Shown piece by piece: positions 23,573-40,090 of a stretch of DNA of 60,511 nt (position 1 is its first letter; the number at the start of each line of letters is the position of its first letter). Under the pieces are notes generated by a model. It did no database searches, was not told where the DNA came from, and worked only from the letters and a program-made list of their open reading frames with translations. The stretch comes from Halanaerobium saccharolyticum. Its GTDB lineage: Bacteria; Bacillota; Halanaerobiia; Halanaerobiales; Halanaerobiaceae. The position numbers and the translations under genes were made by a program. Location of the stretch: the NCBI RefSeq assembly GCF_003053565.1, contig NZ_QAXS01000015.1, forward strand, positions 1-60,511, read 5' to 3'.

Positions 23573-23616
23573 TTAAAAACCACCTTTCTTTTAATTTATA
23601 ACAAATTAAACTGCCT

Positions 23617-23641
23617 AAAAAGGGGCAATTTAAGCCCCTTT
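23617..23641 (-). terminator. Attenuating hairpin between pstS and pstC
   Basis: AAAGGGGC (23619-23626) pairs with GCCCCTTT (23634-23641), and the minus strand continues into T residues. Its position inside the operon implies partial termination that favours the binding protein over the membrane subunits. Confidence 0.8.
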
Positions 23642-23674
23642 CAGCAGTAATCTATATTTTAATATTTAATATTT

Positions 23675-24580
23675 TTACTTTGCTAATTCTTCAACTTTAG
23701 CCATTGCTTCCTCATAAGATGGAAGTGGCGCATAACCAACTTGAGGTATAATTTCTTGAGCGTTTTTAAAATAGAACTTTAAGAAAGCTTCTACTTCTGG
23801 ACGCTGAACAGCTGAGTTTTTAGCATAAACAAATAATGGTCTAGCAAGTGGTGTATATTCTTTGGCAGCAATAGTTTCTGGATTTGGTAGAACTCCATTT
23901 ACTGCAACAGCTTTTAATTTTTCACTATTTTCTTCATAGTAAGCATAACCGAAATAGCCAAGTGCATATTTGTTGCCGGAAATTCCTCTAACTAATACAT
24001 TGTCATCTTCACTAGCAGTGAAATCTGAACGACTGGCTCCACCTTCACCATTAATTGCTTCAGTAAAGTAATCAAAAGTACCTGAATCTGCACCAGGACC
24101 ATAAAGATCTATTTCTTCATCTGGCCAATCATCTCTAACATCACTCCAGGTTTCTACACTTGAGTTTGGTTCCCAGATCATCTTTAATTCTTCAACAGTC
24201 ATATCATTGGCCCAGTCATTTTCTGGATGAACAGCAACTGTAATTCCATCATAACCAACAATAAACTGAGTAAATTCAATTCCATTTTCAGCTGCAATTT
24301 CTGCTTCTGATTCTTTAATCTCACGGGAAGCATTACTTAAATCTGTTTCACCAACATTAAACTTAGCAAAACCTCCACCTGAGCCAGATACTCCAACAGT
24401 AACTCTTACACGTGGATTTTCATAAGAAAACTCTTCTGCCATTGCCTGTGTTACAGGATAAACTGTACTGGATCCATCAATCTTAATAGTACCTTCCAGT
24501 TCCTCTGCTGCAGCGCTAATCGGAAGTACTGCCATAACTACAAGTGCAAGAACAAATAATAATGCTGTAATTTTTTTCAT
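23675..24580 (-). CDS. pstS: Periplasmic phosphate-binding protein PstS
   Basis: The high-affinity phosphate receptor of the Pst system; 301 residues. A signal peptide (1-25, ending ISAAAEE) has no lipobox cysteine, unlike PstS lipoproteins of single-membrane Firmicutes, so the protein is probably soluble in a periplasm. The phosphate site shows DGSSTVYP (34-41), [12 protein letters not shown] (63-74) and the later [11 protein letters not shown] four-repeat Pho box lies upstream and contains the integration site of the mobile element. Confidence 0.96.
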
Positions 24581-24638
24581 TAAATATTTTCCCCCTTAAG
24601 GAATTTTTGATTTTTTCTTTAACTTGACTCTGATTAAA

Positions 24639-24692
24639 ATAATAACAGGCGAATGTTACAGCAGTATGTCCCTTATGTTAACAAAATGTAAA
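24639..24692 (-). promoter_or_regulatory. Pho box and promoter of pstS
   Basis: Four direct repeats lie in exact 11-bp steps on the minus strand: TTTACA (24687-24692), TTAACA (24676-24681), GACATA (24665-24670) and GTAACA (24654-24659). This is the layout of PhoP binding sites in Firmicutes (TTAACA-like hexamers, 5-bp gaps). A TATTAT -10 candidate lies at 24639-24644. A PhoPR-type pair is encoded at 37579-40033. Confidence 0.85.
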
Positions 24693-24693
24693 C
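24673..24693. repeat. attL core, 21-bp direct repeat
   Basis: Identical over 21 bases to 35539-35559 and different on both sides. Read on the minus strand it contains TTTACA-5 bp-TTAACA, two of the four Pho-box hexamers of pstS. Because the repeat keeps these hexamers, integration leaves the pstS Pho box complete. Confidence 0.88.
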
Positions 24694-24802
24694 TCTCTAG
24701 TTTTTAAGATTTTTTAATTTAGTCTAACATAAGCTAAATGACAGCATTCTTTAATTTTACACCTTTAATCCGTTTTAGGTGATTCACCCTGTTTTTAATC
24801 TG

Positions 24803-24825
24803 TATTGCAGTAACATTGCAGTAAA
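24803..24825. repeat. Left arm-type repeat
   Basis: A 23-bp sequence built of two GCAGTAA units (TATTGCAGTAA, CATTGCAGTAAA), identical and in the same orientation as 35441-35463. It lies between the core site and int, where integrase arm sites are expected. Confidence 0.7.
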
Positions 24826-24850
24826 AAAGACCAGCTTATTTGCTGGCCTT
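24822..24850 (-). terminator. Terminator overlapping the integrase stop codon
   Basis: AAGGCCAGC (24842-24850) pairs with GCTGGTCTT (24827-24835) on the minus strand with one wobble, followed by a T run. The TAA stop of int lies in the loop. It should stop int transcripts before the pstS promoter. Confidence 0.85.
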
Positions 24851-25984
24851 CTTAATCTTATACATGGTATCCATATTTTTAGCTGCACTATCCAGCATTT
24901 CATCTGTTACATGTGAATATGTATCCATTGTAACTGTAATACTACTATGCCCTAATATCTGCTGTAATGTTTTTATATTTCCTCCATTTTCTAAAAATAG
25001 TGTTGCGAATGTGTGTCTTAAATCATGCAGTTTGATTTCAGGCAAGTTTATATCCCTGCTTAAATTTTTGAATTCAATATACGCCATCATTGGACTAATT
25101 GGTTCCCCCAGCTTATTACAGTTGACTAAATCTTGATCTTTATAATTATTTCCTAATGCTAATTTATTTTCACTCTGCCGTATCTTATGCCTTTTTAATT
25201 CTTTTACAACATTATTAGTTATTGGAATAACCCTGTTACCTGCTTTAGACTTAGGCTTCTTTAATATTATGCCTTTATCAGTCTTAACAGCCTGTCTCTT
25301 GACTTCTAGTCTTTTCTTATTAAAATCTATATCCTTCCACTTCAAACCCAGTAATTCGCCCCTTCTCATGCCTGTGTTGACCGCTAAAAAGAATATCATA
25401 TAATATTTATGCTTTTTTGCCCGGGCCAGAAATCTGCTTACCTGTTTTTTATTCCATATATGCAGTTTTTCCTCTTCCTGTTTGGTTGGAAGCTCTACCC
25501 CTTTGGACGGATTAGAATAAATCAGTCGTTCTTTTACAGCCTGTTTTAATGCTTTATTAGCAATAGCATAAATTAGTCTAACGGTACCAGTATTCAAACC
25601 ACTATCAAACCTATCATTTAATACCTGCTGCAGATGCCTGGTCTCTAATTCTTTTAGTTTTATATCTCCTATTTCTGTTTTAAGGTGATTTCTAATAATA
25701 GAACCATAAACTCTATATGTGCTGTAAGCAACAGTGTTCTTTCTACCTTTATTCCATTCTAACAGCCAATCCCCGAACTTCATTTCTGACTGTTTTTTAT
25801 ATGACCCCTCAAACAACTTTTGCTTTAACTCAGTCATTTGCCGGGAGACATCTCTTCTTTTATCTCCGTAAAAAGTTTTTCTAATAATTTTTCCTGTCTT
25901 TGGATCAGTTCCTACTGTTACCTGTCCACACCACCGGCCATTTTTTCTTTTATAAATAGTGCCTTCTCCATCTCCTCGGGCCAT
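24836..25984 (-). CDS. int: Tyrosine site-specific integrase
   Basis: Catalyses integration and, with an excisionase, excision of the element. The 382 residues have an N-terminal AP2-like arm-binding region (1-60, TIYKRKNGRWCGQV), a core-binding SAM-like domain (about 65-160) and the catalytic domain. Catalytic residues are visible: Arg207 (TGMRRGE), a Lys in PKSKAGNR, HDLRH (320-324), LGH (His346) and Tyr356 (DTYSHV). The family is common on low-GC Gram-positive phages and integrative elements. It sits at the left edge and reads towards attL and pstS. Confidence 0.96.
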   Translation of the reverse strand: MARGDGEGTIYKRKNGRWCGQVTVGTDPKTGKIIRKTFYGDKRRDVSRQMTELKQKLFEGSYKKQSEMKFGDWLLEWNKGRKNTVAYSTYRVYGSIIRNHLKTEIGDIKLKELETRHLQQVLNDRFDSGLNTGTVRLIYAIANKALKQAVKERLIYSNPSKGVELPTKQEEEKLHIWNKKQVSRFLARAKKHKYYMIFFLAVNTGMRRGELLGLKWKDIDFNKKRLEVKRQAVKTDKGIILKKPKSKAGNRVIPITNNVVKELKRHKIRQSENKLALGNNYKDQDLVNCNKLGEPISPMMAYIEFKNLSRDINLPEIKLHDLRHTFATLFLENGGNIKTLQQILGHSSITVTMDTYSHVTDEMLDSAAKNMDTMYKIKKASK

Positions 25985-26011
25985 CTTTAAAACCTCCTTA
26001 TTTTTTAATGA

Positions 26012-26176
26012 TTATAACCATATTTTCAGTTTTAAATCGGTTGAATCAGCTTCATCTCTAATCTTTTCTTCCTCTGTCTTATTTAAATCTTTATTAAGAA
26101 GTAGATTTTTATTTTCTTTTGGACTGTATAAACAAGCTTTTAAATCTTTCGGTAATGTTTTCTTAAATATTTTCAT
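26012..26176 (-). CDS. Hypothetical 54-residue element protein
   Basis: Starts MKIFKKTLPKDLKAC with AAAGGGGT upstream and runs to a TAA near int. Lys/Asp/Glu-rich with no recognised domain (a LNKTEEEKIRDEADSTDLK stretch). Its start overlaps the end of the RHH gene by 14 bases, which supports a real small operon. It is too short for function to be guessed. Confidence 0.55.
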   Translation of the reverse strand: MKIFKKTLPKDLKACLYSPKENKNLLLNKDLNKTEEEKIRDEADSTDLKLKIWL

Positions 26177-26312
26177 TATTTATTACCCCTTTTCTAGTAT
26201 TGGCTTTCAAAATATTTCTAATCACTCTAGACCGGCTACCTTCCTCTAATGATTTAACCCAATTAATTAAATGCTGATCCTTATTCTCCCTTAATCTTAT
26301 TGTAACTTTCAA
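26163..26312 (-). CDS. Ribbon-helix-helix (CopG/Arc-like) DNA-binding protein
   Basis: A 49-residue protein starting at TTG (26312) with GGAGGTGA five bases upstream. The N-terminal strand KVTIRLRE followed by helices INWVKSLEEG and SRSRVIRNIL fits the ribbon-helix-helix fold of CopG/Arc repressors. Lying just upstream of int, it may control integrase or copy functions of the element. Confidence 0.65.
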   Translation of the reverse strand: MKVTIRLRENKDQHLINWVKSLEEGSRSRVIRNILKANTRKGVINNENI

Positions 26313-26326
26313 AAAATCACCTCCAG

Positions 26327-26506
26327 TTAACATAATTCATTAATAAGGGCCTTTACTTTCTTAACTCTAAATTCTATTGATTCTAGCTGCATTTCTTTTA
26401 CCAAAGGACAAATTGTCATTTCCATATCTGCTGCTGTATTTCTTATATCATCAACATAATTTAATAGTTCCTTTTGCTTTGCAATTCTAACTTTTTCAGA
26501 TAGCAT
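26327..26506 (-). CDS. Hypothetical 59-residue helical protein
   Basis: Starts MLSEKVRIAKQKELL with a GGGGGAGG ribosome site and ends NELC. Mostly helical by composition (DDIRNTAADMEM, ESIEFRVKKVKALI). It precedes the RHH gene by 14 bases and reads the same way. It is the first gene leftward from the divergent control region at 26507-26716. No family recognised. Confidence 0.6.
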   Translation of the reverse strand: MLSEKVRIAKQKELLNYVDDIRNTAADMEMTICPLVKEMQLESIEFRVKKVKALINELC

Positions 26507-26716
26507 TATGCCTCCCCCCTTTGTCGGATTTTGTCATACTAGATAAATAAAAAAATATACTTTTGAAACTGGCCTACTTTTTATAATCTTTTCTAATCTA
26601 ATTTAATTCTTGCTTATATTATATCACTATAGTTATATATTGTAAAGTTATATATTTTATAGTTATATTGTTATTAGAATATATATAAATTATAATTAAA
26701 CAAAGGAAGTGTTAAA
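26507..26716. promoter_or_regulatory. Divergent control region with AGTTATAT repeats
   Basis: This AT-rich gap separates leftward int-side genes from the rightward XRE gene. Between about 26628 and 26672 the motif AGTTATAT occurs three times in direct orientation. The rightward promoter candidates (TTGTAA, 17 bp, TTATAT) overlap these copies. They are candidate operators for the adjacent XRE or RHH protein. Confidence 0.4.
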
Positions 26717-26935
26717 ATGATAAAATTAAACATAGAAAAGTTATTAGAAAAAAATAATAAATCCATGTACTGGTTAGCTGAAAATACAGATATAACATAT
26801 GCAGCAATATATAAAATTGCCAAAGGTAATACTGAAGGTATCCAATTTCATACTTTAGAAGAAATAATGCTGGCCCTGGATATTAATGATTTTAATGAAA
26901 TATTTAAGTTTATAGATGATAAGGACCAGCAATAA
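26717..26935 (+). CDS. XRE/Cro-type repressor
   Basis: A 72-residue single-domain helix-turn-helix protein. IEKLLEKNNKSMYWLAENTDITYAAIYKIAKGN matches the Cro/CI type of short phage or element repressors (YozG-like), followed by HTLEEIMLALDIND. Divergent from the int-side operon, the usual place for the switch regulator. An AAGGAAGTG ribosome site precedes the ATG. Confidence 0.85.
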   Translation: MIKLNIEKLLEKNNKSMYWLAENTDITYAAIYKIAKGNTEGIQFHTLEEIMLALDINDFNEIFKFIDDKDQQ

Positions 26936-27059
26936 TTAGCTTCTAAGCCTAAAAAAATAGATATACTGGCTTTTTATGGACTTAATTTTATTTATAGGTA
27001 TCAAAAGTCAATAAACTAACTAGGTATTATTATTTAATGAATATAAGGTTGTAATAATT

Positions 27060-27314
27060 TCAATTCTTAGCAATATCCTTATAATCATCTGATTCTTCAA
27101 GTTGATCAAATAAACTTAATAACTGTTCTCTTTCTTCTTCTGATAATTCTTTTTCTAATTCCATTTTCTCGTACAAAACAACAATTTCATTTAGAATTTC
27201 AAGCGTTTCTTGGCTTAAAGCATCAAGTTTCTTAATTTTCATTTGAAAATCATCTTTTTTATTATCTAATTTATCTGCTATTTCATTTAATATATGCTTG
27301 CTTACTGTACTCAT
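27060..27314 (-). CDS. Hypothetical helical element protein
   Basis: 84 residues, strongly charged and predicted almost all helical (ADKLDNKKDDFQMKIKKLD, ELEKELSEEEREQLLSLF), with a coiled-coil character. Its start codon shares a base with the stop of the HGG zinc-motif gene, so the two are co-translated. No family recognised. Confidence 0.65.
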   Translation of the reverse strand: MSTVSKHILNEIADKLDNKKDDFQMKIKKLDALSQETLEILNEIVVLYEKMELEKELSEEEREQLLSLFDQLEESDDYKDIAKN

Positions 27315-27835
27315 TAATATTTAACCTCCTTTAACCTGCCAGCAATTCTTTTAACAGCAGAATCATCCCTTATTTCCTCATTTACTATTGTTACTACCTG
27401 ATTAACTATATTTTTTACCTCGGTAACCTCTAAAATATACTTTTCTCCCTCTTCAACTTTCTGCCTTCTCTCAATATTCCTGCCCAGTTTATCAGCTAAA
27501 GTATTAAGCGTTTTAGCCAAACTCTGGTTAAATTCTAGTTTTCCCTGTTCTAACTTTTCTAAAATAGATAAAATAATGGACTGCTGCAGGGCTATAGTTT
27601 TCCTTAAATCAAGTAATTCTTCATCATCTGCTAATTTATCAACCATTTCCCCTAATCTATGACTGGTATATTTACTGTACATTCCATGTTTTATTGGACT
27701 GGCTCCTCCATGTAACTTGCATTTACCTATACCTTGATGATTAGTACCCCAACCTGCCGGCTTTTGACAGGGAGATCCATCTTTTTTAGTTTTAGCCCCG
27801 CATATTTCAAAGTTTTTTTCTTTTACTTCTTTCAT
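27314..27835 (-). CDS. HGG zinc-motif phage-type protein
   Basis: 173 residues. The N terminus holds a small zinc-binding motif, Cys12-Gly-Ala, Cys23, Cys39 and His42 in the order CGAKTKKDGSPCQ...GKCKLHGG, seen in many phage proteins, often next to or fused with small-terminase-like functions. The remainder is helical and could form coiled coils (LRKTIALQQSIILSILEKLEQ). A packaging or DNA-binding role is an inference; no large terminase is present. Confidence 0.65.
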   Translation of the reverse strand: MKEVKEKNFEICGAKTKKDGSPCQKPAGWGTNHQGIGKCKLHGGASPIKHGMYSKYTSHRLGEMVDKLADDEELLDLRKTIALQQSIILSILEKLEQGKLEFNQSLAKTLNTLADKLGRNIERRQKVEEGEKYILEVTEVKNIVNQVVTIVNEEIRDDSAVKRIAGRLKEVKY

Positions 27836-28017
27836 AAGGTATCATCCTTTCTTTAATCTTTCATGGACTATAAAAAACAATTCCAAATTGTTAATATATG
27901 GTAATTGAAATAATCTGAAATAGCTTAAAATTTATATCATATATTCGGGAGGGCATATATATATTATAGATACCGACTTCGACTCACCCCTTCCCCCTCC
28001 CCTGTTTTCCATTAAAA

Positions 28018-28554
28018 TCACTTAATATTCTCTCTTAACCAATAATAGAAGCATTGATACAAGTAGCTTCCAGTTAATTCAGGCCTAATGAAAACTATAT
28101 TCAAATTATATCTGTGCTGAAAAGTATGCAGCGTTGCCAGAAATGATTTAGGATTATATTGAGTTCTATAATTATGTTGAATCATATCCTCATAACCGCT
28201 GCTGTTTTCTATTAATAAGATTAGCTTTCCCTTATTCGATCTAATTAATTCGTTTTCAAATTGAGTTCTATCATGAGTAAAGTTGTTGCTTAACTCATTC
28301 AGACTGGCTTTCCTCTCAACTGCTATCTGATCATTAAAGTAAATATCCCGGATTATTCCTAGCTCTTCATCTTTAGGCAGAAAAAAAGAGTAATCTCCAA
28401 AATCTAACTTTTTAGTTTTATATTTAATTTTCTTTTTATCTAAATAAGATGTAATATGTTCATTCTTTTGCTCCCTGGTATCAATAAGGACTTTTAAACT
28501 CTTTAGCAGCTTTTTCTGTTCTGTTGCTGTATATCTATAATTTAACGCCTGCAT
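28018..28554 (-). CDS. ERCC4-family nuclease
   Basis: 178 residues matching the XPF/ERCC4 nuclease core: VLIDTREQKNEH (Asp25 and the DTRE element), KLDFGDYSFFL (GDY), and ERKASLNELSNNFTHDRTQFENEL carrying the ERKxxxD-type catalytic block in the variant ERKAS. Such nucleases occur on phages and satellites in recombination or resolution roles. It follows a 47-residue gene and precedes a 182-base gap before the HGG gene. Confidence 0.82.
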   Translation of the reverse strand: MQALNYRYTATEQKKLLKSLKVLIDTREQKNEHITSYLDKKKIKYKTKKLDFGDYSFFLPKDEELGIIRDIYFNDQIAVERKASLNELSNNFTHDRTQFENELIRSNKGKLILLIENSSGYEDMIQHNYRTQYNPKSFLATLHTFQHRYNLNIVFIRPELTGSYLYQCFYYWLRENIK

Positions 28555-28581
28555 GGTCTGGTACCACCTCCAGTATTGTAT

Positions 28582-28725
28582 TTAGTGCTTGATTGCTTTT
28601 AGATGTTCCTGTTTCCATTTCAGCAGATGATCATAATGCTTGTGTCCTAATCTGAATGCTTTCATTATTAACTTATCTAAATCTTTTACTTGCTTTTTGC
28701 GATAATTATCTGATATACTAATCAT
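28582..28725 (-). CDS. Hypothetical 47-residue basic protein
   Basis: Starts MISISDNYRKKQVKDLD and ends LKAIKH, rich in Lys and His. Ribosome site AGGT nine bases upstream. It fits neatly between the 153-residue gene and the nuclease on the same strand, which is the main reason to call it. Confidence 0.5.
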   Translation of the reverse strand: MISISDNYRKKQVKDLDKLIMKAFRLGHKHYDHLLKWKQEHLKAIKH

Positions 28726-28784
28726 AAGTTAAATACCTCGCTTTCCATTGTTTTGAGTCCTGCCTCTAACAGGACTTTTTTTAT

Positions 28785-29246
28785 TTATATAGCAACTTTT
28801 TCAAATATCTTTGCAATTTCTCGACTGAATGGAATTAAATATTCTTCCCTGGCCTCGGTCCAATGCTCCTGAGTATCCCAGAATTGGACTTTATCGGGTC
28901 CAGCTTCCAACCTTAGCTTATTATCCTTAACTTGTAATACAGCACCTACTGCCCTGAATCCATGCAGATTTGAATATAATTTTTCGTCTATCTGTTCAGC
29001 TTTCTTTAATACTTTTTTCCAGAAATGATGGTCAACTTTCAGGTCCGGCCTCGGATCATATCTGTATTTTAGAAATCTAACTGCAGCTGATTTATTATTT
29101 TTGAGTTCATTTATTAGATGTTTAATCTCATCTTTATTATTAGACTTCTTTTCATCTGCTAATTTTAATTTGAGGTTTTGGCCGAACTGGATAACCAACT
29201 TATAACCGGCCTGCTCTAATTTTTTAATTATTTCAGCTGCAAACAT
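28785..29246 (-). CDS. Hypothetical protein next to the primase
   Basis: 153 residues. The first 60 residues (LEQAGYKLVIQFGQNLKLK, then LKNNKSAAVRFLKYR) resemble the short TubC-N-like module often seen at the N terminus of mobile-element replication proteins. The rest (FRAVGAVLQVKDNKLRLEAG, EYLIPFSREIAKIF) is not recognised. Its start shares one base with the primase stop, so it likely works with that protein in element replication. Confidence 0.6.
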   Translation of the reverse strand: MFAAEIIKKLEQAGYKLVIQFGQNLKLKLADEKKSNNKDEIKHLINELKNNKSAAVRFLKYRYDPRPDLKVDHHFWKKVLKKAEQIDEKLYSNLHGFRAVGAVLQVKDNKLRLEAGPDKVQFWDTQEHWTEAREEYLIPFSREIAKIFEKVAI

Positions 29247-31303
29247 TAGATAACCACCTCTCGTAAATCATCAAATTCTAAGTCTTTAATAGTATCGACA
29301 TTATCGACATAATCGACATTATTAATTTTATTTGTTATTTTGTCTATATTGTCTATATTGTCGCTACTGGTGAGTTTAATTATTTCGGGATTTAACTTTA
29401 TTAATGGACTTGGATTTCTACCTGGTTTATTATTTTCTCTTTTGATAACTTTCAAATAATATCTTTCTTCTAAAAAGGCTAATATTTTATCTAAGTCTTT
29501 AACTTTTTTGATTTCTTTTTTCTTTTCAACTAATCGGTAAACATCTCTTTTAGTTATTTTTTCTTCACCTGAGGACAAAATTCTTTCTAATACATATTTA
29601 GCAAGCTCAACCTCTGGATCAATCTCCAATAAACCATATACCTTTTTAGCATGAGGAATCAATATTTTTCCTAACTCAATAGCTGCATTCATGCTGTCTG
29701 GCTCTATTTTCTGCTGCCAGATGTCTTGAGATGCTTGCCCGGTCTTTGGATTTATTTTACTTGCTAGATGGAATATACCGGCAACTCTTGCTAAATTACC
29801 TTTTAATTTTCCAGCCCAATCAACCATATTATTTAAATCTCCCTCTGGACCCATTCGTCTTTCTATGTCTTCTTCAAAATTATAAAATATTTCTTTTGCT
29901 TCTCTGGTCATTTTAATTACATGTGGTATCCATTCGCCTGAATTATCAACCTGCATTGGCTGCATATTCAAGAGACCATGCATAGCTCTTTTATAATTAT
30001 TAACAACTAACTGATCAAGTTCTGGAGCATTGAATCCTACTTTTCTATGCCCTATCTTAGATTTCGGAAACCCCAACAACATTCTTCCGATTGCCCCCTC
30101 TTGTCTGAAAGCTCTTTTATTCTGTAGATCCTCGAATATTATCGGTTGAACTGCTAACCCCAGAGTAAGTGCTGCATTTTTAACATTAACGCTACTTCTG
30201 CCCACTCTATCATCTGTAATATTGCCACCATCCCAACCTTTATTAAATCCCTCTAAATTGGTTACTCTTGAATATTGGCCGGATAGAATTTTAAATATAC
30301 CTCCTTCATCAGATAATATTGCTAATCTACCTTTGTTTTCTTCAAGCAATATATTCATCTGCTCCGGTGTAACATTAGAAGCAATTAATTTTGGAAGTGT
30401 TGGAATCTCCATTTCTTCAATTTCGTCACTTAAAGCATAAACTTTCTCAAATAATTCTCTTTGTTTATTGGTATCAGTAGTACTTGCTGCAGCTTTCTCC
30501 AGCTTACTCAATTGTTCTTCTAAAATATTTTTCTTTTTATTAAGATGTCGCCTTTCGACTTTTACTTCTTCTCTCAATTGCTCCTGTTTTTCTTCTATTG
30601 GTTTTATGAATAATTGATAGATACTGCTCTTTCTATTGGCCGGACCCATGAAGACAACTATAAATAAATTAAGTGGTTCCTGGTACCCTGTTTTAATCTG
30701 TACAACTGCTTTTTTTGCTAATGCTGTTGCAAGTGAAGCTAAACCAATCAACAAAGGCATTAACTTAGGTGTTTGAGTAAATTCTGAAACATTTTCAACC
30801 ATATCTCTGAAATAATCGATATTTAAAAAATCTAAATCAAACTCAGGAATATTGTGATTTACTATTGGAATTGGTTTTTCCCAAACTTTTGAGTTTTCTA
30901 ATACCTCTACAACACTTGCTATTTCTTCAGAACTCTTACCTTCATCAATCATCTTAGAAATTTTATTTTTTAAATCTTCTCTATCGCGAATCTTTCTTCT
31001 TTCTTTTAATTTATCTACAAGATCGTTATTTGACATTAATTTTAATTGCATACCCTCTTTAAAATCTATCAATTGTTCCATTTGATTGTCATTTAAAACG
31101 CCTGCAGATTGTAAAGTTAAAAGAGAAATTTTATCATCAGTATCTAATTGGTTTTTTATCCATTCAAAAGCCTTTTTTGTTATTTCTAAATCAAAATGTT
31201 CTGATTTCAATTCATTAAAGTTATCAAATCCAAATGGCGATCTATCATCTAATACTGTTGCGATTATTCTTTTTTCTACGGAATCATAAGCAATCTTGCT
31301 CAT
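29246..31303 (-). CDS. DUF3987-type primase/helicase-like replication protein
   Basis: 685 residues. The N terminus (DSVEKRIIATVLDD to about 100) resembles the DnaB N-terminal domain. The central DUF3987 ATPase-like region has FMGPANRKSS (220-227) as a P-loop variant and GRLAILSDEGGIF near 330 as a Walker-B-like strand. A C-terminal winged-helix-like part follows, then a low-complexity tail of NID/NVD units at about 649-674. Such proteins start replication in phage satellites and integrative elements. No separate polymerase is present. Confidence 0.82.
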   Translation of the reverse strand: MSKIAYDSVEKRIIATVLDDRSPFGFDNFNELKSEHFDLEITKKAFEWIKNQLDTDDKISLLTLQSAGVLNDNQMEQLIDFKEGMQLKLMSNNDLVDKLKERRKIRDREDLKNKISKMIDEGKSSEEIASVVEVLENSKVWEKPIPIVNHNIPEFDLDFLNIDYFRDMVENVSEFTQTPKLMPLLIGLASLATALAKKAVVQIKTGYQEPLNLFIVVFMGPANRKSSIYQLFIKPIEEKQEQLREEVKVERRHLNKKKNILEEQLSKLEKAAASTTDTNKQRELFEKVYALSDEIEEMEIPTLPKLIASNVTPEQMNILLEENKGRLAILSDEGGIFKILSGQYSRVTNLEGFNKGWDGGNITDDRVGRSSVNVKNAALTLGLAVQPIIFEDLQNKRAFRQEGAIGRMLLGFPKSKIGHRKVGFNAPELDQLVVNNYKRAMHGLLNMQPMQVDNSGEWIPHVIKMTREAKEIFYNFEEDIERRMGPEGDLNNMVDWAGKLKGNLARVAGIFHLASKINPKTGQASQDIWQQKIEPDSMNAAIELGKILIPHAKKVYGLLEIDPEVELAKYVLERILSSGEEKITKRDVYRLVEKKKEIKKVKDLDKILAFLEERYYLKVIKRENNKPGRNPSPLIKLNPEIIKLTSSDNIDNIDKITNKINNVDYVDNVDTIKDLEFDDLREVVI

Positions 31304-31333
31304 TCATTTTCTGCCTCCTTTTTGAGTTTTCCT

Positions 31334-31552
31334 TTATTTCTGGCTCTGTTCATCTATCCATCTCAAAAACTCTTTTTTAGTAACCATATATCTGCCACCT
31401 AATTTAATTGAATTGAAATCATTTCTTTTAAAGATGGAATACATCTTATTAACATTAATGCCCAGGAAACTCGCACAATCTTTAACTTTTAAAATCGCAC
31501 TTAAATCATCAGGGCTTTTATATTCCTTATACTTATCTTTTGCTGTTCTCAT
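31334..31552 (-). CDS. Excisionase-type helix-turn-helix protein
   Basis: 72 residues with an excisionase-like winged helix: LKVKDCASFLGINVNKMYSIFKRNDF followed by KLGGRYMVTKKEFLRWIDEQ. This is the usual sequence layout of Xis/AlpA-type proteins that bend att DNA or activate int. It overlaps the XRE gene by 4 bases, so the two are co-expressed from the promoter at 31809-31837. Confidence 0.82.
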   Translation of the reverse strand: MRTAKDKYKEYKSPDDLSAILKVKDCASFLGINVNKMYSIFKRNDFNSIKLGGRYMVTKKEFLRWIDEQSQK

Positions 31553-31743
31553 CTCTCCACCTCCTCAAGCAATTCATCAATACCCATTTCAAAAAATGAT
31601 TCGAGCTTTTCCTGTGTTGGTTTATACGGGATTAATCTACCGTTTTCAATTTTGCTCAACTGTGACGGCTGCACCCTTAACTCAAATGCCAAATCGGACT
31701 GTGTCATATTTTTCTTTTTCCTTTCTTTAACTAATCTTTTCAT
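31549..31743 (-). CDS. XRE-family regulator
   Basis: 64-residue Cro/CI-type DNA-binding protein: KERKKKNMTQSDLAFELRVQPSQLSKIENGR is a textbook XRE helix-turn-helix. First gene of the leftward replication operon and divergent from the 347-residue zinc-ribbon gene. It probably binds the palindromes at 31811-31879. AGGAGG precedes the ATG. Confidence 0.87.
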   Translation of the reverse strand: MKRLVKERKKKNMTQSDLAFELRVQPSQLSKIENGRLIPYKPTQEKLESFFEMGIDELLEEVER

Positions 31744-31808
31744 TTGTTTTAGCCTCCTAATTTTAAATTATAAATAAAGATTTCGTGCTTTTGTTCTTGT
31801 ATATGTCT

Positions 31809-31879
31809 ATTATATCTGATATAATCATTATGGTAAAAACAAGTTAGCATAATATTTTATTATGATATCTGTCATATCA
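31809..31879. promoter_or_regulatory. Divergent promoter with two palindromic operator candidates
   Basis: Leftward promoter: TTTACC (31832-31837), 17 bp, TATAAT (31809-31814) on the minus strand. A palindrome TATATCTGATATA (31811-31823) overlaps its -10. A second palindrome, TGATATCTGTCATATCA (31863-31879), lies on the rightward gene's side just before a TATAAT. Both contain ATATCTG, as expected for sites of one repressor. Confidence 0.6.
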
Positions 31880-31942
31880 AGGTTTATAATAGTTATATTA
31901 TTAGACAATAAAGTGGGTTAGTATAAAGGAGGAAATTTTAAG

Positions 31943-32986
31943 ATGTATGAAGTATTCTTTGATTTTAATGGCCATAATTCTGAAAATAGTCATAAATTGG
32001 AGGGTTTATGGATGCCTGCTCAGTCTAAACCTCAAATTAATAAGTTTGGTCACGGTCTATTTAGCTTTGTAAATTTAAATTTGAATAACTTGGAAAAGAT
32101 TAAAGAATTTATAAACCAATGGTCAGTTAATAAAATAAGACTGATAAATGGTGATGAATACAATATTGATAAGTTATCGGTTAAAGACATTAATATCTTA
32201 AGAACTCAACAGGAAAAAATAAAAAGAGCAATTTTTTTATATTTAGGCGATATGGAAGAAATTGGTAGCAGTATAGATACTGAATATTTGTCTCCAGAAG
32301 AAAGATTTAATATCTTTGAGGCAAATATATTTAATATTCCTGTTGAACTAACTACTGATAGGATATTTACGAAAAGTGATAGAACATTGAGAAGGGTTCA
32401 AAAAAGAATTGGTGAAATAGAAAAGGAAATTGATAAAATAGAGAAAGAAATTACTAACTTAAATTCCCATAATATTTTATACAATAATATACTTTTTGAA
32501 ATGTTTGAAAAATACTGTGATGAAAATGAATGTAATCAAGAAATTTGTAATGAATACGAATGTATGGAAAGAGCTCGAAAAGAAAAAATAGATGAACTAA
32601 ATAATAAAAGCAATCTTAAAAGACAACAATTGAGGGAATTAGAATTTCGAGGATGGAAGGTTATTACTAAATATACGGTTCCAGATATTTTAACTCTTTC
32701 ACTATTAGAAATACTATTAGCAATTCAAAATAACATTCCAGCAAAAAGATGTTCTTTATGTGGAAAAATTTTTTTAAATTATGGCAAACGAAATAGCATA
32801 AAAAGATGCCCAATATGTGGTGAAAATGATAATACAGCAGCAAATGCATATAATAAAAAAAAGAGGATTTTAAAAAAAATTGTTGAAAATGAAGCTAAAC
32901 TTGAAAGAATTGCTAAAGAAGAAAATTTACCAATTAATTGGTTAAAAAAACAAGTTGGAAGTTTTAAATCAAATAAAAAATCCTAG
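31943..32986 (+). CDS. Unrecognised protein with C-terminal zinc ribbon
   Basis: 347 residues, divergent from the replication operon. The N-terminal 130 residues have no known match (VFFDFNGHNSENSHKLEG). A long charged coiled-coil segment spans about 145-245 and includes an odd cysteine cluster (CDENECNQEICNEYECM). Residues 270-292 carry CSLC...CPIC with 15 residues between, followed by a basic NAYNKKKRILKK helix, an arrangement like CGNR-type zinc fingers. AAAGGAGG precedes the ATG. Nucleic-acid binding is likely; a regulatory or anti-phage role is speculation. Confidence 0.7.
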   Translation: MYEVFFDFNGHNSENSHKLEGLWMPAQSKPQINKFGHGLFSFVNLNLNNLEKIKEFINQWSVNKIRLINGDEYNIDKLSVKDINILRTQQEKIKRAIFLYLGDMEEIGSSIDTEYLSPEERFNIFEANIFNIPVELTTDRIFTKSDRTLRRVQKRIGEIEKEIDKIEKEITNLNSHNILYNNILFEMFEKYCDENECNQEICNEYECMERARKEKIDELNNKSNLKRQQLRELEFRGWKVITKYTVPDILTLSLLEILLAIQNNIPAKRCSLCGKIFLNYGKRNSIKRCPICGENDNTAANAYNKKKRILKKIVENEAKLERIAKEENLPINWLKKQVGSFKSNKKS

Positions 32987-33010
32987 GAGTTAATCCCCTA
33001 GGATAATTTA
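32971..33010. terminator. Bidirectional terminator between convergent element genes
   Basis: ATCCTAGG (32980-32987) pairs with CCTAGGAT (32997-33004). The left flank is A-rich and the right is AT-rich, giving a U tract for leftward transcripts and a weaker one rightward. The TAG stop of the 347-residue gene lies inside the left arm. Confidence 0.75.
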
Positions 33011-33024
33011 TTAATCTATTCTTT

Positions 33025-33186
33025 TTAACTGTCAGTTTCCATTTCTAAAAAAGAATTCAATTTATTTTCAGCATTTATATATATCAAATTATTCTTATCA
33101 CAATTCGGACAAGTAATTCTTAAAAATCCTTCAAAATCACCTTCAAACAAATCAGTTTTACAACCTTTACATTTTACTGTTTTCAT
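33025..33186 (-). CDS. Com-like zinc-finger protein
   Basis: 53 residues. KCKGC near the N terminus and CPNC at residues 27-30, separated by LFEGDFEGFLRIT, match the layout of phage Mu Com, a small zinc finger that binds mRNA to activate translation of the mom DNA-modification gene. No mom homologue is evident here. It is convergent with the 347-residue gene. The assignment rests on the cysteine spacing and overall length. Confidence 0.65.
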   Translation of the reverse strand: MKTVKCKGCKTDLFEGDFEGFLRITCPNCDKNNLIYINAENKLNSFLEMETDS

Positions 33187-33213
33187 TTTATTTTACCTTC
33201 TTTTTATATTATT

Positions 33214-33876
33214 TTATTTATAAGAATATCCTCTATATCTCTCACCATATTTATCAAAAACCGTTATAAGGCCATGTTCATTATTGTCCTTTCCTAACAT
33301 GATTGAAAAATCTCCCTCACCATTTAATAAAATAATACTTCCTCCTGTATTATTTGCTGAATTTGTTATTAACATAGTAGAATTTTCTCCTATTACTAAA
33401 TTATCTTTTGGATCATCTCTTTCATATAAATCTATTCCAAAACCAAATAATAAATCATTATCATTATCTTCATCTTCTTCAAAGAAGTCATCCTTAAAAT
33501 TTCTGAAATTACTGCCAATGTTCATGGCGTTTTTATTATCTTTGAGATTAATACTACCAGTCCCTATATATGTTCTCCATTCACTATTATTATTTAAATC
33601 AATACTTCCTGCCTGAATATTAGTATTAGAATTCCCTAAAGTAGAACTTTTGCTAAAGACATCTATTTTTCCATAACCCTGTTCAAATACTTCATTTTTT
33701 TCAGCACTTAATTCAATCAATTTATTTCCTCTTTCATCCACAATCTTAATATTTTTAGCGATAATCTCATTATAAAACTGTTGAGCTGTCGTCTGCTGCA
33801 AGCCATCATCTGCAAAACTAAAAAACACAGCAATAAAAAGAAGTGGATAAATAATAAACCTTTCAAATTTCTTCAT
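33214..33876 (-). CDS. Secreted protein of unknown function with strand-rich repeats
   Basis: 220 residues with a signal peptide (1-23, KFERFIIYPLLFIAVFFSFA). The mature part has repeating short strand-turn units such as NIKIVDERGNKLIEL, SINLKDNKNAMNIGS, NLVIGENSTMLIT and GSIILLNGEGDFSIML, suggesting a beta-solenoid or beta-sheet repeat, with an acidic DEDNDND insert. An exported surface or periplasmic product of the element's cargo block; no family recognised. Confidence 0.7.
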   Translation of the reverse strand: MKKFERFIIYPLLFIAVFFSFADDGLQQTTAQQFYNEIIAKNIKIVDERGNKLIELSAEKNEVFEQGYGKIDVFSKSSTLGNSNTNIQAGSIDLNNNSEWRTYIGTGSINLKDNKNAMNIGSNFRNFKDDFFEEDEDNDNDLLFGFGIDLYERDDPKDNLVIGENSTMLITNSANNTGGSIILLNGEGDFSIMLGKDNNEHGLITVFDKYGERYRGYSYK

Positions 33877-33983
33877 AATTTCATCTCCTTATTTAATGCT
33901 ATATGAATAGCTATCAAAAAAATATCTCTATTTAAATAAATCCTCTGGTAAAGTCTTATATTTAAGATTAATAAATAAAATTA

Positions 33984-34526
33984 TTATTTATCCTTCCAAA
34001 ATTTCATCACATCAGTAACTGTCAAAGCTATAATATCTGCAATTGTTTGATGAATAAATGGATTCAAATTATTTGTACCTGGAATACATATTTTTTCAAT
34101 TCGCTTTTTGAAACTACGGACAAGTAACACCGCTGAAATTTCTTCAAAAGGATTAATATTTTTATTTATTGCTTCTCGAAATACTTCTTCATATTTTTCA
34201 ATTATACTTATCTTAATAATTTTAGGGTTTGATTCGAATTTAGAGCTCATTAATATACTTTTACAATATCCATTTATTTTTTGCCCTCGCTTTTTAGGTA
34301 TGGCTTTAGAATTGCCATTCAAGATACCAAAACAAGCACCAAAAATCGCCCCTAATAACTCATCAATATTAATATTATCCTGATATTTTTTTATACTTGT
34401 CTCTTTTTCCATTTTAAGAACATCATTTATAATACTAATAGTTTTAGATCCTTTTTCCAAAACAATAGTTAAAAATTCAACAGAATTTAAGTCATCTTTT
34501 GGTTTTCTTTTAAAAAAATCAAACAT
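33984..34526 (-). CDS. Hypothetical cytoplasmic protein
   Basis: 180 residues, no signal peptide or membrane segment. Starts MFDFFKRKPKDDLNSVEF; a central GAIFGACFGILNGNSKAIPKKRG segment and a helical C terminus ending DVMKFWKDK. No known motif. It lies between a secreted protein and two small membrane proteins on the same strand, in the part of the element that carries no replication or integration genes. Confidence 0.65.
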   Translation of the reverse strand: MFDFFKRKPKDDLNSVEFLTIVLEKGSKTISIINDVLKMEKETSIKKYQDNINIDELLGAIFGACFGILNGNSKAIPKKRGQKINGYCKSILMSSKFESNPKIIKISIIEKYEEVFREAINKNINPFEEISAVLLVRSFKKRIEKICIPGTNNLNPFIHQTIADIIALTVTDVMKFWKDK

Positions 34527-34660
34527 TTTTTCTCCTCTCTTTATTTATTCATACCACAATTAACTTTCCTTATAATAAGATTCATATCCAAAAAATTTAA
34601 AATTTCTAAAATTAATTTTTTACTTAATAGTTGATGGAATTAAAGTTTTTATTTCACCCT

Positions 34661-34996
34661 TTATATTTCCATCCTATTCCATTCATTAGGTGGTATAAGA
34701 TTGGCGAAAAGATATGTTATTATTATTCCAATAAGTGCGCCATACCATGCTCCTATATTAATATAGAAAGTATAAGCATGAATAACTAAATAAATAAACA
34801 TAGTGAAGGTATAAATAATATCTAAATATTGCTTAGTTTGTTTCTTAAAAAACTGCATTGGATTCAGAATAATCCTAAATATAATCATCATCAAAGGAAA
34901 AGCAATTATTGTAATCCACCAAATCATTGAATATAATTGAATATTAATGACCAAAGATATAAAAATCTCAAATACTAAAACAAATAAAGATAACAT
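34661..34996 (-). CDS. Small membrane protein of unknown function
   Basis: 111 residues with about four hydrophobic segments (LFVLVFEIFISLVINIQL, IIAFPLMMIIFRIIL, IIYTFTMFIYLVIHAYTF, ALIGIIITYLFANL) and a short polar tail. It starts 16 bases after the upstream 99-residue membrane gene, so the two probably form a pair. No family recognised. Confidence 0.65.
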   Translation of the reverse strand: MLSLFVLVFEIFISLVINIQLYSMIWWITIIAFPLMMIIFRIILNPMQFFKKQTKQYLDIIYTFTMFIYLVIHAYTFYINIGAWYGALIGIIITYLFANLIPPNEWNRMEI

Positions 34997-35012
34997 TTCA
35001 ATCCCCCTCTTT

Positions 35013-35312
35013 TTATTCTTTAAAATTAAAACTTCTAATTAAAAATATCCCAGCAGCAATAACATCTAGAACTTGCCAGACAGATCTCTTTAAATAAAAA
35101 GGTAATACAGGATTAAATATTATAACAATTAGTGCAAATAAGGATACATATATGTTATCTTCATTCTGAAATGAAATATATATATTATACATTCCTACTA
35201 AAAAAACTGTCCAGCGTAGTAATATGTAATAATTATAAGGTTGTGATTTTAAAGCTAAAATTAATAGAAGAACACAAATTAAATTAATAAACAATCTTGT
35301 ATACTTTCTCAT
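35013..35312 (-). CDS. Small four-helix membrane protein (DUF6804-like)
   Basis: 99 residues, four hydrophobic segments. The pattern YNYYILLRWTVFLVGMYNIY followed by FALIVIIFNPVLPFYLKRSVWQVLDV resembles the widespread DUF6804-type small membrane proteins of unknown role. It is the outermost gene at the right end of the element, about 230 bases from attR, with GGGAG before the ATG. Confidence 0.7.
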   Translation of the reverse strand: MRKYTRLFINLICVLLLILALKSQPYNYYILLRWTVFLVGMYNIYISFQNEDNIYVSLFALIVIIFNPVLPFYLKRSVWQVLDVIAAGIFLIRSFNFKE

Positions 35313-35440
35313 AAATCATCTCCCTAAAAAATATTCTTAATACATAATTGAAGATAAAGAAAAAAATTCCTTTATTTAAAATAAAAAAACTCCAGCAGGG
35401 AAAATCTCCACTAGGGCCATAAAATCGCTTCTATTTTTGC

Positions 35441-35463
35441 TATTGCAGTAACATTGCAGTAAA
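35441..35463. repeat. Right arm-type repeat
   Basis: The same 23 bases as 24803-24825, same orientation, 76 bp inside the attR core. Further partial GCAGTAA-like matches (AACAGTAACC) follow towards the core. Confidence 0.7.
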
Positions 35464-35538
35464 TCGGGTTATTTGAATTAATTAGACCTGCTATAATGAC
35501 TGCTATAACAGTAACCTGTCTAAAATATCATTAATCTA

Positions 35539-35559
35539 TTATGTTAACAAAATGTAAAC
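35539..35559. repeat. attR core, 21-bp direct repeat
   Basis: The second copy of the 21-bp core at 24673-24693. It holds only two Pho-box hexamers; the two further hexamers seen at attL are missing here. It lies 8 bases from the terminator stem of the neighbouring host operon. Confidence 0.88.
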
Positions 35560-35560
35560 A

Positions 35561-35596
35561 AATAAAAAAACCGCCCCTAAAGGCGGTTTAAAAAAG
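35561..35596 (-). terminator. Terminator of the ArsR-permease-redox operon
   Basis: AAACCGCC (35568-35575) pairs with GGCGGTTT (35582-35589), followed on the minus strand by a T run. It lies between the small redox gene and attR. Confidence 0.88.
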
Positions 35597-35619
35597 TTTA
35601 TCTTACTTTTTATTATTAT

Positions 35620-35850
35620 TTATACTATTAATTCTTTAATCTCATCTACTGTTGCAACTCTACCTTTAATTTTAACTTCTCCATCAATTCCAATTGCAGG
35701 TGTACTCATGATTCCAGCCACTGCTATTTCTTTCATATCCTCTACTTTAACTATTTCTGCCTCAACACCTGTTTCTGCTACAGCTTTTTTTGCATTATCA
35801 GCTAAGTTGACACAATTTTTACATCCTGGTCCATAAATAGTAATCTTCAT
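35620..35850 (-). CDS. Small redox-active thioredoxin-fold protein
   Basis: 76 residues of the TM0996/MTH895 family of mini-thioredoxins. The active site is GPGCKNC at residues 7-13, and the cis-Pro loop is STPAIGIDG. ATG at 35850 is preferred to an upstream in-frame GTG because GAGGAG lies eight bases before it. With the permease and ArsR regulator upstream it forms a conserved trio often linked to metalloid or thiol stress. Confidence 0.88.
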   Translation of the reverse strand: MKITIYGPGCKNCVNLADNAKKAVAETGVEAEIVKVEDMKEIAVAGIMSTPAIGIDGEVKIKGRVATVDEIKELIV

Positions 35851-35894
35851 GATTAACACTCCTCAAATTTTAGTTTGTGATTTTATTCTTTTTA

Positions 35895-35926
35895 ACCAGG
35901 TCCAAATCGACTTATTTGGACCTGGT
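35895..35926. repeat. Palindromic repeat, GGTACC-family copy a
   Basis: A perfect 13-bp inverted repeat, ACCAGGTCCAAAT (35895-35907) and ATTTGGACCTGGT (35914-35926), with a 6-base loop, 26 bases past the permease stop. It shares its core with the copies at 37560, 51778, 53413 and 58836. Confidence 0.75.
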
Positions 35927-35951
35927 ACGAATCTACATTTTTGGTACGAAT

Positions 35952-36908: not shown

Positions 36909-37270
36909 TAACAGCAACCTCCCTTAGAACCTGATTTTATTTCTGCAGCTGTATCTAAAGTATCAATTTTATTTTTTAGCTCTGCTAAATTTAAATCCTC
37001 CAATGAACTGGCCTTTAAGGAAATAAGTCTTGCCAGATAACTATCATAAACACTTCTATCTATTGAATAATAAATCCACTTACCGCTTTTCTCTTCCTCT
37101 AAAAGCTCAAGCTCTTTAAAATAACTCAAATGCTGAGATACACTGGACTGCGACTTATCCAGTAATTCCTGCAGCTGGCAGACACAGTACTGACCATCCA
37201 GGAGCAGTTTTAATATTTTAAGACGATTTTCATCAGCTATACATTTTAAAAAGTTAAGTAATTCTTCCAT
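36908..37270 (-). CDS. ArsR-family metal/metalloid-responsive repressor
   Basis: 120 residues. The winged helix includes DENRLKILKLLLDGQYCVCQLQELLDKSQSSVSQHLSYFKELELL. The CVC pair in the recognition region and a terminal SGSKGGCC tail provide candidate metalloid ligands. ATG at 37270 has GGGAG five bases upstream, better than the upstream GTG. It probably binds the palindrome over its own -10 (37299-37321). First gene of the operon. Confidence 0.92.
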   Translation of the reverse strand: MEELLNFLKCIADENRLKILKLLLDGQYCVCQLQELLDKSQSSVSQHLSYFKELELLEEEKSGKWIYYSIDRSVYDSYLARLISLKASSLEDLNLAELKNKIDTLDTAAEIKSGSKGGCC

Positions 37271-37298
37271 AAGCACTCCCTCGTTTTCATATTAATAT

Positions 37299-37338
37299 TT
37301 ACTAATATGATTATATAGTAATATATTTCTCATGTCAA
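37299..37338 (-). promoter_or_regulatory. Consensus arsR promoter with overlapping operator
   Basis: On the minus strand TTGACA (37333-37338), 17 bp, TATAAT (37310-37315). An inverted repeat TTACTA (37299-37304) / TAGTAA (37316-37321) brackets the -10, the usual position for an ArsR operator. Confidence 0.8.
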
Positions 37339-37419
37339 CAAAAAGAGTGTATTTTAATTTTTTATGATTTTGAGCACTGTCAAATAAGTAATTTATTTTA
37401 ATATTAATTTATCACCCCA

Positions 37420-37576: not shown

Positions 37577-37578
37577 AT

Positions 37579-39360
37579 TTATTCCGCCATCTTCAAATAA
37601 AATGTAAACTCACTTCCGGCTCCTTCACGGCTTTTAACCTGAATATCACTGCCGTGCTGTTTAACGATATTACGGACAATTGAAAGGCCAATACCAGTAC
37701 CACCTAAAGATCGACTGCGGGCTTTATCAACTCTATAAAACCTTTCAAAAATCCTTTCCTGGTCAGCAGCTGGAATTCCCATTCCATTATCTTTTACCGA
37801 AAAATAGACCTTATCACCTTCATGTTCAACTTTAATTTTAACTTCTCCACCGGCAGGAGTATATTTAATTGCATTATCAATTAAATTAATCAGTACCTGC
37901 TTAATCTGTTCCCGCACCATATATACAAGTGGTAAATTATCAGCTATTTCAACTTTAAAATCAATTTTTTTGTCTGCTGCATTTTTTTCCAACAAATTAA
38001 CTACTTTGTCTAATACTTTTTTCGGATCATCTTTTTGTAAGTCAAATGACTGTGACTCAATTTTTGAAAGATTAAGGAGATCATTAATTAAGATAGATAA
38101 GCGGTCAGTTTCTTCTTTAATTATCCCTAAAAATCTGTCTCTTGTTTCCTGGTCTTCAATATTACTTTCTAAAAGTGTATCTAAATAACCAACCATTGAT
38201 GTCAGAGGTGTTCTAAGCTCATGTGAAACATTGGCAACAAAATCATTGCGCACTGTCTCCAACTTCCTCAACTCAGTGATATCAGTAAGCACAATTACTC
38301 CACCACTAACATTTTCCTTTTCATCAAGCAGAGGAATAAAGGTAGCCTGAATTATTTTTTCATCCGGATTTTTATATTTAATCTCTCTACTGATACTTTC
38401 TTTTTTATCAAATGCACGCTCTAAATACATATCAATTCGGTGGCTGAAAAGCGAGCTGATTAGTTCTTTCCCCTTAATTTTTTCTGCTTCAATATTAAAA
38501 ATTCGGCGGGCAGCAGGATTAATCAGAGAAACTTTCCCCTCCCTGTCAACTGCAATTACTCCATCGACCATACTCTCTAAAATAGCTTCAATCCGATTTT
38601 TTTCCTGAGAGACTTCCGTAATTTTTTCTTCTAATTCTTCCGCCATAAAATTAAACATTCGGGCCAATTTTTCAATCTCACTATTATATTTTCTTACCGG
38701 TATTCGTTCAGAAAGTTCGCCTTCTGAAATTTTGGCCGCAGTTTTTGTAACTGTCTCCAGAGGCTTAACTATACTGTTTGTTAAACGCCAGCCAAGAATA
38801 ATAGTAATTACTGCTAAAATTATAAAGAAAAATAAATAACTTTTAATATCTTCATATAAAACACTGCGGATAAAACTCAAAGGCCTTGCTGTCCTTATTG
38901 TTCCCTGCAATTCGTCATTTTCATAAATTGGAATCGCATAATAAAGCATTTCTTCACCAATTGTATCACTAAAACGAATTGAGCTCCCCGACCTTTGATT
39001 ATTAACAGCCTCCACTACTTCCGGTCGATCGTTATGGTTATCCATCGCCTGAACATTATGATGAGAATCAGAAAGAACGACCCCCTCAGCAGTAATCACT
39101 GTAACCCTGGTCTCCGTATTTTCTGACCACTCTGCTGTTTCTTCCTGAAGTGCTGGCTGATTATTTAATAAATTATCTTCTTTAATATCACTTAAAATTA
39201 ACTTGCTGTAATGTCCCAGACTCAGTCTTTCCTGCTCCAGGTAAAATTCCCGATGATTGGTACTGAAATAATAGAAACTAAAAGCAATAATTAAAAGCTG
39301 AATCACTATAAAAATAATTACAAGCCGGTTTTTGATTCCAATATTATTCCATTTTAACAA
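37579..39360 (-). CDS. phoR: PhoR-type membrane sensor histidine kinase
   Basis: 593 residues. Transmembrane helices at about 11-30 and 174-192 flank an extracytoplasmic sensor. HAMP follows (193-245), then PAS (about 255-365, LESMVDGVIAVDREG), HisKA with the phospho-acceptor His380 in FVANVSHELRTPLTS, and HATPase_c with NLIDNAIKYTPAGG, DNGMGIP and GGTGIGLSIV. This layout is that of PhoR/PnpS/WalK-type kinases; closeness to pst genes and the Pho box favours PhoR. The gene overlaps the response regulator by 17 bases. Confidence 0.88.
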   Translation of the reverse strand: MLKWNNIGIKNRLVIIFIVIQLLIIAFSFYYFSTNHREFYLEQERLSLGHYSKLILSDIKEDNLLNNQPALQEETAEWSENTETRVTVITAEGVVLSDSHHNVQAMDNHNDRPEVVEAVNNQRSGSSIRFSDTIGEEMLYYAIPIYENDELQGTIRTARPLSFIRSVLYEDIKSYLFFFIILAVITIILGWRLTNSIVKPLETVTKTAAKISEGELSERIPVRKYNSEIEKLARMFNFMAEELEEKITEVSQEKNRIEAILESMVDGVIAVDREGKVSLINPAARRIFNIEAEKIKGKELISSLFSHRIDMYLERAFDKKESISREIKYKNPDEKIIQATFIPLLDEKENVSGGVIVLTDITELRKLETVRNDFVANVSHELRTPLTSMVGYLDTLLESNIEDQETRDRFLGIIKEETDRLSILINDLLNLSKIESQSFDLQKDDPKKVLDKVVNLLEKNAADKKIDFKVEIADNLPLVYMVREQIKQVLINLIDNAIKYTPAGGEVKIKVEHEGDKVYFSVKDNGMGIPAADQERIFERFYRVDKARSRSLGGTGIGLSIVRNIVKQHGSDIQVKSREGAGSEFTFYLKMAE

Positions 39361-40033
39361 ACTTATATCCCACCCCTCTTACTGTGGCTATATAGTCTGA
39401 AGATATCTTTTTGCGCAGACGCCTGATATGTACATCAACTGTCCTTGTATCTCCAGCATACTCATAACCCCAGATCTTTTCTAATAGTAAATCTCTGCTC
39501 AGTACACGACCCTGGTTAATTATTAAATAACGTAAAAGCTCAAATTCTTTGGGGGTTAAGACAATTTTCTGTTCCTGATAAATAACTTCATGGCGGGGGA
39601 TATCGAGTTTCAAATCACCTAAGTCAATAATTTCCTCTTTTAACTCACTGGTGTCAGCTTTAAATTCCTTTATTCTGCGAAAAATCGCTTTTATTCTGGC
39701 TATCAACTCCCTGGGACTAAATGGTTTAGTCATATAATCATCCGCTCCCATTTCCAGACCCAGAATTCTCTCAACTTCTTCTCCCTTGGCCGTCAGCATA
39801 ATTATTGGGATCTGGCGCAGTTCTTCACTTCCACGCATTCGCCTGCAGACCTCCATCCCATCAATTTGGGGCAGCATTAAATCTAGAACCACCAGATCTA
39901 TTTCATCTGAAAGCTGCTCCAAAGCCTCTCTGCCATCGTCAGCAGTCAGCACCTCAAAACCTGCATTTTCTAGATTGAATTTTATTAGTTCTCGTATATT
40001 TTTTTCATCTTCAACAACTAAAATCTTTTCCAT
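39344..40033 (-). CDS. phoP: PhoP/PhoB-type response regulator
   Basis: 229 residues, OmpR family. Receiver domain: acidic pair near residue 9, phospho-acceptor Asp51 (LVVLDLMLP) and MLTAKGEE with the conserved Lys near 101. C-terminal winged helix: LTPKEFELLRYLIINQGRVLSRDLLLEKIWGYEY then TVDVHIRRLRKKI. ATG at 40033 is chosen because GGGAGGA lies six bases before it; the upstream ATG at 40066 has no such site. It is the probable regulator that binds the pstS Pho box. Confidence 0.88.
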   Translation of the reverse strand: MEKILVVEDEKNIRELIKFNLENAGFEVLTADDGREALEQLSDEIDLVVLDLMLPQIDGMEVCRRMRGSEELRQIPIIMLTAKGEEVERILGLEMGADDYMTKPFSPRELIARIKAIFRRIKEFKADTSELKEEIIDLGDLKLDIPRHEVIYQEQKIVLTPKEFELLRYLIINQGRVLSRDLLLEKIWGYEYAGDTRTVDVHIRRLRKKISSDYIATVRGVGYKFVKME

Positions 40034-40090
40034 TCTAAATCCTCCCGGATTTCTTATTTTAATCATATCTATTTGAAATATTTGTAGATT

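Follow-up and report, generated by a model that had tools for sequence, protein, structure and literature searches.

The stretch of DNA analysed here, hereafter the window, comprises 60,511 nucleotides of the halophile Halanaerobium saccharolyticum (contig NZ_QAXS01000015.1). In it, a phosphate transport locus headed by pstS lies at one end of an insertion of ~11 kb, and the phoP and phoR genes are located 2-5 kb beyond the other end, on the side of a thioredoxin-like gene (trx) (Table 1). Genes coding for the thioredoxin-like protein, an ArsP-type permease and an ArsR-type regulator occupy positions 35620-37276, between phoPR and pstS; in several relatives (G007, G010, G011, G012 and G013), phoR is found directly upstream of pstS.

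Table 1. Features of the pstS-trx region and of the inserted element (positions in the window)
Feature	Position	Strand	Evidence and remarks
pstS, followed by pstC, pstA, pstB and phoU (down to 20247)	23675..24580	-	TIGR02136 1.3e-87; ORFs
Full pstS Pho box	24650..24693	-	TTTACA-N5-TTAACA-N5-GACATA (weak)-N5-GTAACA; attL core plus sequence to about 24650
Core repeat, pstS side (attL)	24673..24693	-	Two Pho-box units; exact repeat; footprint kept in 11 relatives; joins in empty site
Candidate arm-type integrase site, pstS side	24803..24825	+	TATTGCAGTAACATTGCAGTAAA (tandem TTGCAGTAA, 11-bp spacing); 23-bp exact repeat (D15)
Intrinsic terminator overlapping int stop codon	24820..24852	-	10-bp stem and U-run; -15.5 kcal/mol, z -5.2
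Tyrosine integrase (int), 382 aa	24836..25984	-	PF00589 1.5e-29; PF14659 4.2e-13; phrog_1 2.2e-82
Small ORF, about 57 aa, RHH-like C-terminus (..INWVKSLEEGSRSRVIRNIL..)	26163..26333	-	Candidate excision/control factor; translation
Cro/C1-type HTH regulator	26717..26935	+	PF13443 3.6e-10
HGGxSTG-like protein, TerS-like candidate, 173 aa	27314..27835	-	NF041373 1.7e-6, just under its cut-off
ERCC4-type nuclease	28018..28554	-	PF02732 3.3e-16; phrog_3490 7.7e-59
DUF3987 primase/helicase-like protein	29246..31303	-	PF13148 3.2e-95; phrog_2373 DNA helicase 5.2e-70
HTH_17 (excisionase-type fold) and HTH_3 regulators	31334..31743	-	PF12728, PF01381; phrog_66 excisionase 2.8e-5
Divergent 347-aa protein, C-terminal cysteine motifs	31943..32986	+	ORF; no family above cut-off
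Cargo, four ORFs (220, 180, 111 and 99 aa; last DUF6804)	33214..35312	-	All read away from attR
Candidate arm-type integrase site, trx side	35441..35463	+	Identical to 24803-24825
Core repeat, trx side (attR)	35539..35559	-	Second two-unit Pho box facing the element's own genes (first ORF start 35312)
Terminator of thioredoxin-like gene	35564..35592	-	-13.1 kcal/mol; adjoins Pho box in empty site
phoR	37579..39360	-	Profile matches
phoP/phoB-like regulator	39344..40066	-	Best NCBIfam match TIGR02154 PhoB 2.2e-78, below equivalog cut-off

The insertion is bounded at both ends by a direct repeat of 21 bp, TTATGTTAACAAAATGTAAAC, the two copies of which are identical, as the earlier note on this DNA had reported. 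When up to three mismatches are allowed, the repeat occurs at these two sites only in the whole 3.2-Mb assembly; shuffling of the window gives an expectation of zero such repeats, and the longest word common to shuffled end regions is 12 bp. The 10.9 kb enclosed by the repeats have a GC content of 29%, versus 35% for the window, and code for a tyrosine integrase. An empty site is present in the near-identical Halanaerobium sp. 5-U2 MAG (G003, QBLP01000018), the contig of which aligns to positions 21774-24693 (99.5%) and 35539-48037 (97.9%) of the window, the two alignments overlapping by exactly one 21-bp core. With the flanks joined over one core, 226 of the 227 bases are matched in this genome, and a 92% version of the same join is found in G004. 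The earlier note had held that an empty site in a close relative should join at the core, and this is where the join is seen. Identical cores at both ends, a single copy in the empty site, and an integrase with catalytic and SAM-like domains beside one att site are features of an element integrated by a tyrosine recombinase, in agreement with the note's reading of the region as mobile DNA. The sole difference in the core of G003 lies in the first hexamer, which is TTAACA rather than the TTTACA of the window; since both window copies and most relatives have TTTACA, this was probably also the form in the ancestral attB of this host.

Pho boxes are defined as tandem direct-repeat units of 11 nt, with seven conserved and four less conserved positions (PMC4415409). 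On the pstS strand the core reads GTTTACATTTTGTTAACATAA, which consists of two 11-nt direct-repeat units, GTTTACATTTT and GTTAACATAA, and forms the distal, two-unit half of a box of tandem units upstream of pstS that is conserved in 11 related genomes lacking the element. The placement of attB within the pstS Pho box, put forward in the earlier note, thus holds, while its description of four TTTACA/TTAACA hexamers needs amendment: hexamers 1, 2 and 4 (TTTACA, TTAACA and GTAACA) fit, whereas the third is GACATA and is degenerate in relatives. Mean column information across the pstS upstream regions of the 11 element-free genomes is 1.93 bits for hexamers 1, 2 and 4 and 1.17 bits for the spacers, and a sliding hexamer comb peaks at the proposed register (offset 0). 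The strict two-unit pattern TTWACATNNNNTTWACAT has 18 matches in 12 genomes of the genus, two of these being the att copies and most being pstS sites, and a reversed-pattern control has one: the pattern is largely pstS-specific. In this genome, the core motif with up to two mismatches is restricted to the two junctions. The few other matches in the genus occur mostly away from Pho genes, and the pattern was set aside as a guide to a wider Pho regulon. Binding of PhoP at the pstS box is predicted from the footprint and the gene neighbourhood. In G004, the DNA over the trx/Pho-box junction is 92% identical (L085, G004:C21), yet the pstS product is just 37% identical; pstS appears to have been replaced, downstream of a conserved Pho box, in several Halanaerobium-related genomes (G004, and also G005, G011 and G013).

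The integrase comprises a SAM-like core-binding domain and a catalytic domain in which the R..K..HxxR..H..Y residues are kept in the alignment, and the candidate arm-type sites, placed near the two ends as such sites should be, resemble tandem repeats near the ends of related elements. Two or three HTH regulators, including one of the excisionase-type HTH_17 family, are encoded in the element, and candidate recombination directionality factors are located at 31334-31552 and 26163-26333. The small ORF upstream of int has no match in a Pfam search, and the DNA around it is 81% identical to a phage contig (L109, IMGVR_UViG_3300035102_000521) which codes for a tape-measure-like protein and for an integrase 92% identical to that of the element. 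Neither virion genes nor relaxase or conjugation genes were detected within the element, and a PADLOC search for a defence function gave no match for the cargo. According to PMC13376191, phage satellites are 7-20 kb in size and code for an integrase and for regulation and replication genes, with no structural genes; the same combination is found here. By gene content the element therefore resembles a phage satellite, with a weak TerS match, and it is very probably a 10.9-kb satellite-like element whose own tyrosine integrase placed it in the two-unit half of the Pho box farther from pstS.

That the element is instead a decayed prophage or an integrated plasmid seems unlikely, although a real chance of it is left. 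The 92% identical integrase on the phage contig would fit such an origin, as would the occurrence of relatives of the TerS-like (66-67% identity) and ERCC4 (70%) proteins on two IMG/VR contigs of 9.9 and 12.2 kb, L151 (IMGVR_UViG_3300006866_000028) and L152, in which no integrase is seen; the end of L151 overlaps its own start, suggesting a circular form. The element's genes are, however, intact and compact, and related elements of 13-15 kb share the integrase, the HTH modules and, in some cases, the ERCC4 and DUF3987 genes, which argues for a satellite-like element. In L152, a small gene module is also present twice, as paralogous copies.

On the pstS side, neither the box nor any of the promoter sequence downstream of it differs from the empty site, and the complete Pho box which the earlier note expected the host to keep is indeed retained. 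In the empty site the terminator of the thioredoxin-like gene lies upstream of the box; in the occupied site it is replaced, at a distance of about 130 bp, by the int terminator. This terminator directly after int and the second two-unit box at the far junction are features the earlier note had not described. The shared core would rebuild the operator, while the int terminator would take over the upstream insulation, and the insertion should be near-silent for pst because pstS keeps its full box and a strong terminator follows int. A disturbance of pst regulation, by which the element would serve as a switch in the way SpyCI does at mutL, is very improbable. The insertion does replace everything that lay upstream of the 21-bp core, and promoter-proximal islands are able to switch genes (PMC4129442), but the unchanged box and promoter sequence argue against such a role and the int terminator should prevent read-through into pst.

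PhoP-type proteins read the units of their boxes as direct repeats, and tyrosine recombinases bind inverted repeats on either side of the crossover. The core may serve both, as it can be written as a dyad, TGTTTACA-TTT-TGTTAACA: because each unit (TGTTWACA) is nearly palindromic, the pair of direct repeats is also an inverted repeat, which may provide the arrangement needed for recombinase binding. The usual targets of integrases are tRNA genes or conserved gene ends, which are favoured for their conservation and because the shared core restores them after insertion. A Pho box conserved throughout the genus would be as reliable a target as a tRNA gene, and the integrase may have picked this sequence for the combination of genus-wide conservation and dyad symmetry.

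The integrases most closely related to that of the element, after the phage-contig integrase, share 60-61% identity with it and belong to elements located in a tRNA-Arg gene, with a 48-bp core, and in a tRNA-Thr gene, with a 32-bp core; a further relative (G015) lies beside an apparent tRNA 3' end. For each of the three closest integrases whose site can be seen (about 60% identity), that site is a tRNA gene, and target choice has therefore switched within this integrase family. Seven residues of the core-binding domain found in the three tRNA users are missing from both the Pho-box integrase and its phage-contig relative. The latter was considered as a second Pho-box case and set aside, as its contig record goes no further than the int stop codon, is probably trimmed and holds no att sequence. 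A more distant integrase (51% identity) uses a 31-bp intergenic site. In G012 (L102, G012:C4, about 84.4 to 100 kb), the 31-bp intergenic site of a 15.5-kb element whose integrase is related lies near rsmA, contains the hairpin-like CTGGC...GCCAG and is unusual as a target outside tRNA genes; the integrase lies 10 kb from pstS, a proximity judged coincidental, and this element was rejected as a second pstS insertion. Searches of IMG/VR and GTDB contigs with the core for a second occupied site yielded nothing beyond chance hits and unoccupied pstS sites of Halanaerobium, and the Pho-box insertion is a single verified instance. A search for the arm-type repeat in viruses yielded one unrelated 46-kb phage contig, L150 (IMGVR_UViG_3300033998_000339, 14414-14433), in which the repeat adjoins a tRNA-like 3' end; an HTH_17-like protein near that repeat is the sole match to the element.

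The overlap with the Pho box could also be incidental, in that the integrase prefers an AT-rich dyad (a TGTTWACA pair) for which the pstS promoter happens to be the best site in the genome. This is given a little less than an even chance, and is consistent with the restriction of the core motif to the two junctions and with the location of the integrase's relatives at unrelated sites such as tRNA genes. It is not really exclusive of targeting through the Pho box, however, as the site owes its rarity to being a Pho box, and its functional conservation would make it a dependable target.

Use of the operator as attB raises the possibility of phosphate control over the element. At attB or attL, bound PhoP~P would lie across the integrase core, and mutual exclusion of the two proteins at both sites is physically reasonable, because they would need the same base pairs; an effect of PhoP on integration or excision is thus plausible. 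The fuller proposal, that at low phosphate PhoP~P covers attB and attL, blocks both integration and excision and drives the element's genes from the attR box, such that mobility and cargo expression follow phosphate, is improbable. The integrase core wholly overlaps Pho-box units 1-2, a two-unit box is present at both junctions, and that at attR faces the cargo ORFs from 226 bp upstream of the first. However, units 3-4 are missing from attR, no clear -10 element is seen at the right distance from its box, and many integrases displace bound proteins. If the proposal is true, the operator of a response regulator doubles as an integrase core, and its duplication places the element's genes under phosphate control.

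The Pho-box landing site is unusual, and a search of the open-access literature for Pho box, att site and integrase did not turn up any case of a Pho box serving as attB. It suggests that the operator of a transcription factor can provide what tRNA genes offer as targets, namely conservation across a genus, near-palindromic units and regeneration after insertion; other elements in tandem-repeat operators may be worth looking for, and the locus would be a direct test case for control of a mobile element by a metabolic signal, phosphate, through competition for the same base pairs. The closest parallels are the elements in the tRNA-Arg (G022) and tRNA-Thr (G017) genes, which share a homologous integrase, a similar size (13 kb), tandem arm-type repeats and a target-restoring identity core; their targets are tRNA genes rather than a response-regulator operator, and their integrases have the seven residues missing here. 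Like SaPI, PICI and SpyCI, the element is about 11 kb, with int at one end, divergent regulators, a primase-like gene, a TerS-like candidate and no structural genes, although its primase is of the DUF3987 type, its TerS match is weak and its satellite nature is predicted from gene content. Prophages and islands near promoters are already known in Streptococcus pyogenes, where prophages and SpyCI insert at promoters or the 5' ends of genes and can alter or block expression, whereas the operator is regenerated here (PMC4129442). Regulatory DNA is likewise targeted by TnGBS and ISLre2 elements, but by means of a DDE transposase that inserts at a distance of 15-17 bp upstream from sigma-A promoters generally, with no identity core; their target is not one specific transcription-factor operator (PMC3942029), as it is in the element described here.
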